IMG/VR virus record: IMGVR_UViG_3300047470_000340
Location: 1 to 31,520 of that record
DNA length: 31,520 nt
Reading direction: 5' to 3' (one strand)
Source: a virus
In this document: piece after piece, positions 2,612 through 11,747 of the stretch
Layout: every line of letters starts with the position of its first letter
Numbering within the stretch: the first letter of the stretch is position 1
Made by a program: the position numbers and the translations under genes
The notes under the pieces: model-generated
The model's database searches: none
What the model was told of the DNA's origin: nothing
What the model saw: only the letters and a program-made list of their open reading frames with translations

Positions 2612-4072
2612 ATGGGTGAGGCAAAACGCAGGGGCACGAAAGCACAACGAATAGCCGCCTTGCTAGATGAAAGCGGCGTTGTTCATATGACCGCTGAGCG
2701 ATACAACGCATTCATCGCTTGGACGCGCTCGCCGATTGCCAACGCCGTAGGTAATGAGCTGGAGTTTTTCTCCGACAAAGCGGAGACGCTGATCGGCGTT
2801 CTGATCGAGGACCGATTTGATCGGGACTTTGGCTTTGTAATTCTTGGGCGAGACCTCAAAGGTCGCTTTCGTTGCATCGACGTAAACTGCAGCATGACCA
2901 GAACAAACGCGCGCTACGCGCTATTCGCTTCGTTAAGAAAGCGCATCGCGAGTGGCGAAACGGTCTTCTCTCAAGGTGACGAGAGGTCCGACAAAGCAGG
3001 TGTTGCCCTTTTTCAAACGAAACTGCCCGAGGAGCAACAGCACCCTGCTTTCCACATGTTGTGCACTCGCCCCCATTGGGTGCCCGCACGGGCGATCATG
3101 TCCGAAATGATGCGGCACTTTGTTGACGTTGATGGCAACTTCGTAGAGCAATTTCAAACCACCGCATTCGATGCACGAATTTGGGAGCTGTATCTCTATG
3201 CAGCGCTTTTGGAGCTTGGCCTTTTCGTGAACAAAGAGCACGAGGCGCCTGATTTCGAAGTGAGCGATGGGCAAAACAAAGTGTTCATTGAAGCCGTCAT
3301 CGTTGGACCATCGCCGAATGATCCCCCGCTCGAACCGCCAAAGAACTGGATGCCCGTTATGCGGACTCCAGAAGAGGTCAAAGAGCTATTGAGGACCCGC
3401 GTACCTATTCGATTCGGTAGTGCGCTTTACTCAAAGCTCAACCGGAAGACTAAATATTGGGATTTGGAGCACGTTAAGGGAAATCCACTCGTCTTTGCAG
3501 TCGCTGATTTTCACGAGGACCAGTCCATGATTTGGACTTCGCCGGCGCTTCTTGAATATCTCTACGCTGTTACTCATGAGTTTTTCCATGACGATGCGGG
3601 TCAGTTAGTAATCACACCATTGAAGATCGAAACACATGAGTACCAAGGAAAGGTAATTCCTTCAGGCTACTTCTTTCAGCCCGGAGCGGAAAACGTGAGC
3701 GCAGTGTTGTTCTCGTCGTCCGGGACAATCTCGAAGTTCAATCGCATGGGACGGCTTGCAGGCTTTGGTCTCGCGAACCAGCGAATTTTCCGAACAGGCC
3801 TAAAGCATCGCCACGATCCAAACGCCGCAATGCCTGACTCATTCTTCCATGAAGTGAAGCAAGGCACCGTGACTGAGACTTGGGCCGAAGGGCTTTCTAT
3901 GTTCCACAACCCCAATGCGAAGCACCCAATTGATCCAAATATGTTTCCCGGCATTGCTCATTATTGGTTTGTTCACGGGAAAGTCAAAGCCTGGCTGCCT
4001 GAATTTCATGTGTACCACTCTTTTACTTGGAACATGATCACTACCGAGGAAGATGACGCAGGTGAGCAGTGA
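2612..4072 (+). CDS. hypothetical protein with PD-(D/E)xK-like nuclease core
   Basis: A 486-aa protein. The ATG at 2612 follows AAGGGA with six bases of spacing. The N-terminus is basic (MGEAKRR). The middle shows a restriction-endonuclease-like signature: W191-E192 in a helix (WELYLYAALLELG), then P-D214-F, then a strand ending E227-A-V. This matches helix-E, PD and ExK motifs, except that the usual Lys after the second acidic residue is Val. The C-terminal half has several His-rich segments (for example THEFFHDD) and is not recognised. It follows the HEPN gene in the same direction inside the island, with its own gap, so it may be separately transcribed. It could be an active variant nuclease or an inactive binding fold. 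The function is not established; a defence role is suggested only by context. Confidence 0.68.
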   Translation: MGEAKRRGTKAQRIAALLDESGVVHMTAERYNAFIAWTRSPIANAVGNELEFFSDKAETLIGVLIEDRFDRDFGFVILGRDLKGRFRCIDVNCSMTRTNARYALFASLRKRIASGETVFSQGDERSDKAGVALFQTKLPEEQQHPAFHMLCTRPHWVPARAIMSEMMRHFVDVDGNFVEQFQTTAFDARIWELYLYAALLELGLFVNKEHEAPDFEVSDGQNKVFIEAVIVGPSPNDPPLEPPKNWMPVMRTPEEVKELLRTRVPIRFGSALYSKLNRKTKYWDLEHVKGNPLVFAVADFHEDQSMIWTSPALLEYLYAVTHEFFHDDAGQLVITPLKIETHEYQGKVIPSGYFFQPGAENVSAVLFSSSGTISKFNRMGRLAGFGLANQRIFRTGLKHRHDPNAAMPDSFFHEVKQGTVTETWAEGLSMFHNPNAKHPIDPNMFPGIAHYWFVHGKVKAWLPEFHVYHSFTWNMITTEEDDAGEQ

Positions 4073-4840: not shown

Positions 4841-4900
4841 CGGTCTTGAAAACCGTCGACTGTAACAGGTCCATGAGTTCGAATCCCATCGCCTCCGCCA
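4841..4900 (+). repeat. tRNA-Ser(UGA) 3' fragment = direct repeat copy 2 (att)
   Basis: Bases 4841-4924 are identical to 7-90. The preceding sequence (ATGTTTGT) does not continue the tRNA, so this is a truncated tRNA copy left by integration, not a functional gene. It marks the junction between the island and the prophage. Confidence 0.88.
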
Positions 4901-4908
4901 TCTTTATA

Positions 4909-4943
4909 CGACAAAGCCCTGATTTTTCAAGGCTTTGTCGTTT
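4909..4943 (+). terminator. imperfect copy of the tRNA-Ser terminator
   Basis: A stem CGACAAAGCC / GGCTTTGTCG with a T-run matches the hairpin at 75-109 but has lost perfect pairing near the loop. It is part of the duplicated att block. Confidence 0.7.
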
Positions 4944-5104
4944 CTGGGGTTTGGCAAAAAATTCGTCAGCTGACATGTGTTCCAAAACTATTTTGGAAGC
5001 GTTCCATAACTCAGCTCCAAATCCCCTCTTCCGGCGTCCTGCCGATAGTTAAGAAACCTTCATGTAACACGGTGCTACGCTGACCTCATAACCGAGGATT
5101 CGCG

Positions 5105-5314
5105 ATGCCAAACTCAGACCTGCTCCCCTCCCTACTGTTCAAGATCAACGAAAACCAGCTCGCCCTGGAAGCCGCCATCATGGAACTTTCGAACTGGGTC
5201 GAGCAGCGCGGCGCGGCCGACGTCGCTGATAATGTTCGCGGTGCGTTGGACACCATCGATAAAAATGAAGAGTTCATCAAGCTGACGCTCGCGGTGCTGA
5301 TGACGCCGGAGTGA
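5105..5314 (+). CDS. 69-aa hypothetical protein next to the att site
   Basis: The ATG at 5105 is preceded by CCGAGGATTCGCG. The product is a small acidic helical protein (NQLALEAAIMELSNWVEQ) ending LMTPE. It has no signal peptide or membrane segment. It lies about 200 bp after the tRNA fragment, just as its decayed sister (281-470) does after the tRNA. The pair therefore behaves as a conserved passenger of elements using this tRNA, or as a host gene duplicated with the att. I recall similar short proteins in Pseudomonas but know no function for them. The region 4944-5104 holds no other gene. Confidence 0.7.
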   Translation: MPNSDLLPSLLFKINENQLALEAAIMELSNWVEQRGAADVADNVRGALDTIDKNEEFIKLTLAVLMTPE

Positions 5315-5421
5315 CTGCGCTCTGCGGTCATCACTCTGGCCCCTAACGCCCCTTATAGCAAAACAATCGCTTATTTGTGGTTAAGCAAACGGAAGACCGG
5401 GGCGTTTCAGTGCGGCTCTTT

Positions 5422-6546: not shown

Positions 6547-6566
6547 TACTGTATATCCAAACAGTA
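6547..6566 (+). promoter_or_regulatory. LexA SOS box
   Basis: TACTGTATATCCAAACAGTA has the CTG-N10-CAG core (6549-6551 and 6562-6564) with matching TA/TA flanks of the gamma-proteobacterial LexA consensus. It ends 16 bases before the GTG of the next gene, a typical position for LexA repression. It implies DNA-damage control of the coiled-coil-SRAP operon. Confidence 0.88.
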
Positions 6567-6582
6567 TCAATAAGGCGCGATC

Positions 6583-6903
6583 GTGGACCCCTACGAAATT
6601 GAAGACACCAGCGATTGGCTAGGCTGTCCGAGCAGGCTGGAAACCATCAAGCATTACGCTCATATGCTCGAGGAAGACATCGAAGAGCTGAGGCGCCAGC
6701 TTCACACGGCGAAGGAAAACATTTCCACCCTAGTCGAAATGAACGACCAGCTTTCGGCCGAACTCCAAAAGAAGCGGGTATGGATGGCGAACCTGGAGGC
6801 GGAAACCACCGACCAGCTTGGTCAGATCCGGAGCCTGACAATGGTCCTCGATCAAAAGGAGCGGATCATTCGCGAGTTGCAAGCGGGCAATCAGAGAGGT
6901 TGA
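6583..6903 (+). CDS. 106-aa coiled-coil protein under LexA control
   Basis: A GTG start at 6583 lies after AAGGCGCG. After about 20 N-terminal residues (DPYEIEDTSDWLGC) the rest is a long charged heptad-rich helix from residue 21 to about 100 (LETIKHYAHMLEEDIEELRR and onward), with no membrane segment. Its TGA ends two bases before the ATG of the SRAP gene, so the two are very likely cotranscribed and coupled. The perfect SOS box just upstream indicates induction by DNA damage, as for the SRAP partner. The product may tether or regulate the SRAP protein or interact with a DNA-repair or polymerase component. I do not recognise the family. Confidence 0.8.
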   Translation: MDPYEIEDTSDWLGCPSRLETIKHYAHMLEEDIEELRRQLHTAKENISTLVEMNDQLSAELQKKRVWMANLEAETTDQLGQIRSLTMVLDQKERIIRELQAGNQRG

Positions 6904-6905
6904 AC

Positions 6906-7484
6906 ATGTGCGGACGACTTTCCCAATACGATGGCATCCACGACTTCGTCGCGGCACTCAGCATGCCCAACCCTCTGGTCAACAGCACCGGTGAGCGACC
7001 TTTCGAGCGGTATAACGCCGCCCCGACGACCCAGGTCGCCATCTTTCACCAGGAAGGTGAATACTTGCACGCCGACATGGTGCGCTGGGGATGGCGCCCG
7101 CACTGGGCCAAGGACCGCGCAGCACCGATCAATGCCAGGGTGGAGAAAGTCGCGCACGGGCCTTTCTTCCGTGCCATCTGGCCGCACCGGGCAATCATTG
7201 CGATTAACAACTGGTTTGAATGGGTAGATGAAGGCGGACCAAAGAAGCAGCCCTACCTGATCCGCCGTCGGGACCGGTCGCCGATATTATGCGCGGCGAT
7301 CGGCCAATACCCGAACCCCGAGCATGAGCCCAGTGAACACGACGGCTTCGTGATAATCACCGCGGACAGCGTTGGCGGCATGGTGGACATCCACGACCGC
7401 CGGCCGGTGACGCTATCCCCCGAACTGGCACGGGAATGGCTTGACCCGGCCACGCCAAAGGAGCGCGCCGAACAGATGGTGTGA
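6906..7484 (+). CDS. SRAP (YedK/HMCES-like) abasic-site protein, C-terminus frameshifted
   Basis: The protein starts MCGRLSQY: Cys2 after the removed Met is the residue that forms a covalent link to abasic sites in single-stranded DNA. The family's other key residues are present: N76 (INARVE), E105 in WFEW, and H163 (DIHDRRPV). At 7482 a TGA ends the frame after 192 aa. The expected C-terminal tail (starting HQGEP) continues in another frame from 7484 to 7603. Removing one TG from GGTGTGATG restores a full protein of about 230 aa, so a 2-nt duplication is the likely cause. The active-site part is complete, but the lost tail belongs to the fold, so activity is uncertain. The gene sits two bases after the coiled-coil gene behind a LexA box. 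Confidence 0.9.
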   Translation: MCGRLSQYDGIHDFVAALSMPNPLVNSTGERPFERYNAAPTTQVAIFHQEGEYLHADMVRWGWRPHWAKDRAAPINARVEKVAHGPFFRAIWPHRAIIAINNWFEWVDEGGPKKQPYLIRRRDRSPILCAAIGQYPNPEHEPSEHDGFVIITADSVGGMVDIHDRRPVTLSPELAREWLDPATPKERAEQMV

Positions 7485-7603
7485 TGCACCAGGGCGAGCC
7501 CACCGAGGCATACGAGTGGTTCAAGGTGGACCGCGCGATTGGTAACGTGCGCAATCAGGGGCCCGATCTGATAAAGCCAGCCGAGGAAAACGGCTTGTTC
7601 TAA
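7484..7603 (+). pseudogene. out-of-frame C-terminal tail of the SRAP gene
   Basis: Read from ATG at 7484 this gives MHQGEPTEAYEWFKVDRAI and continues through NVRNQGPDLI to a TAA at 7601. This is the usual SRAP C-terminal segment (HQGEP...EW..V...V.NQG). It is displaced by 2 nt from the main frame. It has no ribosome site of its own. Confidence 0.82.
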
Positions 7604-10815: not shown

Positions 10816-11747
10816 TAAGAAACCCTCATAAACAACGTTGCTTGGTTGTTTGCGGCGGCGCTCATGGCCCTCCAAGCACCTGTAGGCGCACCCCAAGCAG
10901 AGTTAGCGGTATCACTAAAACTCAGGTTTGAGCCAGCCACTACTGCTCCACTGGCCACGACCGCGCCCGTTAAGTTTTTAAGGAAGGAATAACTACCCAC
11001 TTGATTGAAGGCAACGGATGAAGCCAAGTTATTGGTGGTGATAATTTCATCCCAGACACTCCACGCATTCGTAACGTAGATTCGTTCGAACTTCCGCCGC
11101 GACCCCCAATATGTCAGTGTTTGGTAAATCACTACTGTCGATAGGTTCTTTACCTCCAACAGTGCATCACCAACAATTGGCATGTTTCCTGAGCCACTCA
11201 GTATGTAGTACAAGCCAGAAGGTCTTACACCATTTGCATCGGAAATGGTTTGTAATGTAGTGCCCGTCATTCCCCAGCCAAATGCTCCGGGCATCAACAG
11301 AGCCCCTGCTGTAGCGTCATGCGTCGATGTTTGCACTGCGCGAGTGGAGCCATTGCCTAGGCCGAGCCCCGCTCTCGCGCTCGCCGCATCGGTGCCACCC
11401 GTCCCGCCCTTGGTAAGGGGCAAGATGTCGTAGTTGCCGGTGGTCCCCAGGGCGGCCATCTTGCTGCCGAACTGGTTCACCAATGCCCGCAGAGTATCGG
11501 CCGAGTCTTTGACGTAGCCCTGCATCGGTGCCAGTGCATAGACGCCCGCTGCTATGGTCGTCCCCTGATAGTTCGGCGAGATCGACAAGGCCGTGTCGCT
11601 GGCAATGTTGGTGATTTCATACCAGCCGCCGTCTGGGCCGCGGAAAGCATCACCGACCCGAGCATTGGCAATAAACGCTGTGCCCGCGCCAATGACGGAG
11701 TTGGAATTTTGGGTGACAGAGACCGTTCCTGATTTGTACCAGGGCAT
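10815..11747 (-). CDS. side tail fibre protein with pyocin-knob-like C-terminus
   Basis: A 310-aa protein starting MPWYKSGTVSVTQNSNSVIG, the usual start of Pseudomonas phage and pyocin fibre attachment domains. A segment LPLTKGGTGGTDAASARAGL (fibre 'GGTGG...AR..LGLG' repeat) is followed by a C-terminal region (residues about 140-250) with YYILSGSG and AWSVWDEIITTNN, as in knob domains that bind sugars. It probably recognises the cell surface together with J. The chaperone gene follows it directly. Confidence 0.82.
   Translation of the reverse strand: MPWYKSGTVSVTQNSNSVIGAGTAFIANARVGDAFRGPDGGWYEITNIASDTALSISPNYQGTTIAAGVYALAPMQGYVKDSADTLRALVNQFGSKMAALGTTGNYDILPLTKGGTGGTDAASARAGLGLGNGSTRAVQTSTHDATAGALLMPGAFGWGMTGTTLQTISDANGVRPSGLYYILSGSGNMPIVGDALLEVKNLSTVVIYQTLTYWGSRRKFERIYVTNAWSVWDEIITTNNLASSVAFNQVGSYSFLKNLTGAVVASGAVVAGSNLSFSDTANSAWGAPTGAWRAMSAAANNQATLFMRVS

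Follow-up and report, generated by a model that had tools for sequence, protein, structure and literature searches.

A putative LexA-controlled accessory unit of Pseudomonas prophages with a constant coiled-coil gene and an exchangeable SRAP gene

The window, i.e. the whole stretch of DNA analysed here, is an IMG/VR virus record of 31,520 bp and carries a LexA (SOS) box followed by the gene for a 106-aa coiled-coil protein (CC) and a gene for an SRAP protein. Comparison with related loci makes it reasonably probable that these elements form a LexA-repressed SOS accessory unit of Pseudomonas prophages, located between the attachment site and the lysis genes, with CC as the constant part and SRAP as a swappable part for abasic-site protection. 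A sequence-only reading had proposed a 20-bp palindromic SOS box with a CTG-N10-CAG core 16 bases before a GTG, a 106-aa coiled coil as first gene, a 2-bp coupling to a YedK/HMCES-type gene, LexA control and a prophage location; our analysis confirms the sequence features and supports the last two points, but its end point for the unit and its implied fixed operon had to be revised. LexA-controlled prophage units and phage SRAP are already known (PMC3121763; PMC3765255). We found neither the CC family nor its near-invariant link to LexA in Pseudomonas prophages described in the searchable literature, a scope outside which most subscription papers lie, and the paper on the CC-carrying phage PseuP_222 mentions neither SRAP nor LexA.

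The prophage location is supported by the tail, head and lysis genes of the window and by a duplicated tRNA-Ser(TGA) 3' end forming att-like repeats, the second copy being 1.7 kb from the CC unit (Table 1); an intact tRNA-Ser match is present in three Pseudomonas genomes. CC of the isolated phages VW-6S and PseuP_222 has the integrase on one side and the lysis/tail genes on the other, and is transcribed toward the latter. The direct repeat at 1-472 and 4841-5316 comprises the tRNA-Ser(TGA) 3' end, a terminator-like hairpin and a phrog_12397 gene, the first copy of which is broken, suggesting that two elements may have integrated in tandem at one tRNA. Between the two tRNA-Ser 3' ends a 486-aa protein (2612-4072) matches the anti-phage defence model PD-T7-1 (E 2.9e-175) and phrog_8571, and its 571-aa neighbour (651-2366) has no family match; together they possibly represent a 4.8-kb defence island at the att site. 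The same prophage end encodes a response-regulator receiver protein (PF00072, 5662-6078) just upstream of the CC unit.

Table 1. Features of the CC unit and the adjacent prophage end, in window coordinates
Feature	Position	Strand	Remark
Second copy of tRNA-Ser(TGA) 3' end, probable att core	4841-4902	+	Bounds the prophage beside the CC unit
phrog_12397 gene, 69 aa	5105-5314	+	Recurs just 5' of LexA units in other Pseudomonas prophages
LexA (SOS) box TACTGTATATCCAAACAGTA	6547-6566	.	Core CTG-N10-CAG at 6549-6564; CC start codon 34 bp downstream
CC gene, 106-aa coiled-coil protein	6583-6903	+	GTG start; N-terminal motif, then one long helix
SRAP gene as read in the window, 192 aa + stop	6906-7484	+	ATG 6906, 2 bp after the CC stop
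Two-base difference shifting the SRAP frame	7479-7480	+	Short TG repeat; placed by alignment with five relatives
Former SRAP C-terminus, 39 codons, out of frame	7484-7600	+	Its ATG overlaps the SRAP stop (TGATG)

The LexA box has the arms TACTGT/ACAGTA, and within the 31,520-bp window TACTGTATATCCAAACAGTA is the sole match to the box at up to 3 mismatches (0 of 100 shuffles); for comparison, the LexA consensus in P. aeruginosa is CTG-TATAA-ATATA-CAG (PMC13114513). The promoter region of the CC unit thus contains CTG-N10-CAG, the operator by which members of the SOS regulon are recognized. When distinct-locus CC relatives with 60 bp of upstream sequence were tallied (n = 109), 108 carried this core 33-37 bp before the CC start, a count that describes conservation among related loci collected via CC and not independent repeats. 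As background, the core occupies the -33 to -37 slot at 7/1494 other ORF starts of the same loci, three of these seven having the stricter form CTGT-N8-ACAG. Across 104 distinct upstream sequences the LexA core is invariant and the flanking bases are more variable; nearly perfect palindromes such as CTGTATGCGCATACAG precede divergent CC members, and the boxes of PseuP_222 and VW-6S are perfectly or nearly palindromic. Chance retention of the box is unlikely because CC itself diverges down to about 30% identity, and control of the CC gene by LexA is strongly supported by these sequence comparisons. A promoter scan gave no sigma-70-like promoter, and a further LexA-like site at 3188 was taken as chance, being inside the PD-T7-1 gene. 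VW-6S has a second LexA-type box, CTGTATATCCATACAG, at 11031, about 22 bp 5' of VW6S_20 and near the integrase.

The hydrophobicity of CC shows a periodicity that peaks at 3.5, as in a heptad repeat, with none of 1000 shuffles being as strong, and the AlphaFold model consists of a single helix spanning residues 18-105 (pLDDT about 98), the N-terminal segment before it being less certain; CC thus combines a heptad repeat with a long helix, as expected of a coiled coil. Conservation is concentrated in residues 1-24, where the top-residue frequency is 0.74-0.83 vs 0.30-0.46 in the C-terminal half, and includes the motif YEIEDTSDWLGxPxxLE (residues 4-20); W12, P16, L19 and E30 are invariant in 40 sequences. 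Several pairs of relatives share 82-98% identity over the N-terminal 55 residues and only 9-24% over the remainder, suggesting that C-terminal halves may have been exchanged between lineages. The median dN/dS of CC vs relatives is 0.14 (24 comparisons), as expected of a coding sequence under purifying selection.

Protein searches found CC relatives on 46 viral contigs and a subsequent profile search on 104 (80 kept), as well as in the isolated phages PseuP_222, PseuP_224, VW-6S and SC_8_H2H8 and in three Pseudomonas genomes of a one-genome-per-species collection. Among 249 Pseudomonas species genomes, 73 have a CC match at E <= 1e-3 and 61 (84 places) at E <= 2.8e-9, several with 2-3 copies. 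From 369 genomes drawn across the class the Pseudomonas centre alone matched, with no match in the 368 other gammaproteobacterial genomes. In these searches the CC family did not appear outside Pseudomonas and Pseudomonas phages. CC is not covered above noise by any family in Pfam, PHROG, NCBIfam or PADLOC, DinI is absent from its Pfam and NCBIfam matches, and a PDB sequence search with the CC profile returned coiled-coil noise only. An identity with YabA was rejected as coiled-coil background (NF009644, 21.6 bits vs a cut-off of 130; PF06156, 17.5 vs 30), and matches to SMC, CENP-F, LmuB, GajA and the like are generic coiled-coil noise, below the cut-offs where a library sets them. Public records mislabel CC as 'minor tail protein' or 'defense against restriction protein A'.

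What CC does was approached by weighing several explanations. CC could act without a partner as an SOS-induced inhibitor of cell division or replication, holding the cell during phage replication like other prophage host-arrest proteins. LexA control, restriction to one host genus and the combination of a short putative docking motif with a coiled coil all agree with such a role, but our searches tied CC by sequence neither to proteins of replication, division or the SOS response nor to any known inhibitor, and we regard this role as possible rather than probable.

CC might instead act under LexA control as an antirepressor, as do Tum of phage 186 and GfoA/GftA of the Gifsy phages, being made upon SOS induction to disable the repressor of its own or a co-resident phage. 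This explanation has the best precedent, as Gifsy-1/2/3, 186 and N15 also have, away from the immunity region, a small gene with a LexA box (PMC3121763), and CC is small, probably oligomeric and variable outside one motif. The Gifsy dinI-antirepressor operons and 186 tum resemble the CC unit in being lambdoid prophage transcription units that lie outside the immunity region with a LexA box immediately in front, and, like the CC-SRAP unit, they pair a DNA-damage-related gene with a second small gene (PMC3121763). Unlike them, the CC unit starts with an unrelated coiled-coil gene and has neither DinI nor a known antirepressor. The CI-like repressors of two CC carriers, VW-6S and PseuP_222, contain S24 domains (PF00717, E 1.8e-18 and 2.1e-15), that of PseuP_222 showing an Ala-Gly site and Ser and Lys candidates when read by eye. 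Because of their S24 peptidase domains these two repressors should self-cleave without an antirepressor; the non-cleavable type of repressor was thus not found in either carrier, and the repressor of the window's own phage lies outside the record. The most conserved part of CC, moreover, is nearly identical across phages of diverse genomes. Taken together, an antirepressor function appears unlikely.

The second gene clearly belongs to the SRAP family (PF02586, E 1.8e-43, 149 bits vs a cut-off of 27.1; YedK structures, E 2.5e-42). The window protein shares its fold family with E. coli YedK and human HMCES, and it keeps the catalytic residues Cys2, Asn76, Glu105 and His163, which align with C2, N75, E105 and H160 of YedK (chemistry and residue roles: PMC9436759). 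Unlike YedK and HMCES, it is a phage copy whose last 39 residues are out of frame. In relatives SRAP is one continuous ORF of about 230 aa with 39 more residues in frame, and among about 20 close relatives with matching full-length coordinates all but one (L016, 134 aa) read through. DNA alignment revealed two extra bases around 7479-7480 in the window, which put the last 39 codons in another frame, so that SRAP is truncated and no single frame runs to the C-terminus of the domain. The sequence-only reading, which let the unit end at 7603, had missed this frameshift; the SRAP frame stops at 7484. Every catalytic residue precedes the shift, which may be real, and possibly recent, or an error of the contig or assembly; as read, it probably impairs SRAP. 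The median dN/dS of SRAP vs relatives is 0.04 (21 comparisons).

In 110 distinct CC loci, a set gathered by way of CC and lacking phylogenetic independence, SRAP is intact in 35, broken in 11 (window included) and missing from 64. The pair thus does recur elsewhere, but 75/110 loci have CC without an intact SRAP, several of them keeping SRAP remnants, and this tally rules out a fixed CC+SRAP pair of the kind the sequence-only reading had implied. In the Pseudomonas genomes a phage-type SRAP lies directly downstream at at least 15 of the 84 CC places, a lower bound obtained with part of the SRAP list. Viewed from the side of SRAP, the 30 closest phage-type loci comprise 10 in which SRAP follows CC, 7 in which it follows an unrelated phrog_19595-type leader with a LexA-like box, 7 with a box but neither leader (77-84 bp before SRAP in 6 of these) and 6 in which no box was found. 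With a LexA box upstream in 24/30 of these loci, phage-borne SRAP in Pseudomonas would seem to be usually under such a box. As prophage SRAP follows CC, another leader or the box alone, LexA control appears common to Pseudomonas prophage SRAP and CC is one of several leaders; CC is the constant and SRAP the exchangeable module.

Further observations concern the genes around these modules. The phrog_19595/8717 leaders (171-246 aa) constitute a second unnamed LexA-boxed family 5' of prophage SRAP (L207, L209, L212, L214, L215, L220, L224, and L056 of F116). Three loci (L041-L043) have 3' of CC a 149-aa SRAP-like protein (PF02586, E 0.007, below the cut-off) that keeps Cys2 and an IHDR motif; by eye, Asp takes the place of Glu105, and the usual INAR motif is lost. 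Other cargo downstream of CC (L019, L033, L011) includes membrane acyltransferase, hexapeptide transferase and fatty-acid-hydroxylase-like genes. SRAP genes occur in all 119 sampled Pseudomonas genomes, and many of these genomes contain at least two; a phage SRAP is therefore usually an extra copy.

The same loci bear on a role of CC as dedicated SRAP partner, e.g. recruiting SRAP to single-stranded DNA or regulating its crosslink. The 2-bp gap, the shared LexA box and the retention of the pair in the loci with intact SRAP would fit, but CC stays intact in the loci that lack SRAP and beside the broken copies, and phage-type SRAP also occurs with the unrelated leader or directly behind a LexA box, making such a partnership very doubtful. 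A role as SRAP-specific chaperone is weak given loci without SRAP and SRAP without CC. That the region is merely decaying cargo, the frameshifted SRAP marking an operon no longer useful to this phage, is suggested by the truncation in the window and the broken copies in 10 other loci, but since CC and the LexA box are intact, the dN/dS of CC is low across relatives and the frameshift could have arisen recently or in the assembly, we consider decay very improbable.

The link between phage SRAP and the SOS response has been described by Aravind and colleagues (2013, PMC3765255) for SRAP-SOS operons and lysogenic phages, where, as here, the SRAP domain of temperate phages is tied to the SOS response. 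The SRAP neighbourhoods given there comprise UmuCD, ImuAB-DnaE2 and DinB, and a text search of that paper found neither 'coiled' nor 'LexA-binding'. The P. aeruginosa phages F116 and Presto have, as in the CC unit, a LexA-type box, a leader gene and then SRAP near the integrase; their leader is phrog_8717, related to phrog_19595 and with no detectable similarity to CC.

In our preferred reading, a LexA-repressed accessory unit, DNA damage would trigger LexA cleavage via RecA and release transcription of CC and, where present, SRAP; judging from the box, this derepression would be independent of the phage's own repressor. The heptads and the predicted single helix suggest that CC assembles into a coiled coil of two or three parallel chains. 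Its hyperconserved N-terminal motif, which is non-helical, may dock on one conserved Pseudomonas or phage protein, while the rod and the C-terminal half vary and look as if swapped between lineages. With low confidence we prefer CC to be a modulator of a host protein at the time of the SOS response, and our best guess is that it would act on a component of host DNA damage, replication or division so as to favour phage production. An intact SRAP would crosslink abasic sites in single-stranded DNA like YedK, sparing replicating phage or host DNA from breakage. A further reading, possible rather than probable, is that CC represents a previously unnamed family of SOS effectors carried by prophages of about one Pseudomonas species in four; its N-terminal docking motif would be fixed, the coiled-coil rods behind it exchangeable, and the motif would capture a core DNA-damage or cell-cycle protein of the host.

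To our knowledge, most known cases of LexA control over prophage genes beyond the immunity region come from enterobacterial phages, in which such genes time prophage awakening. The CC unit would be a Pseudomonas-wide counterpart of these genes with an unstudied protein, and it would give prophages of roughly every fourth Pseudomonas species a link to the DNA damage that antibiotics induce. If the effector-family reading is true, CC, a small protein with a clear docking motif, would be a phage handle on the host of a new, LexA-controlled type.
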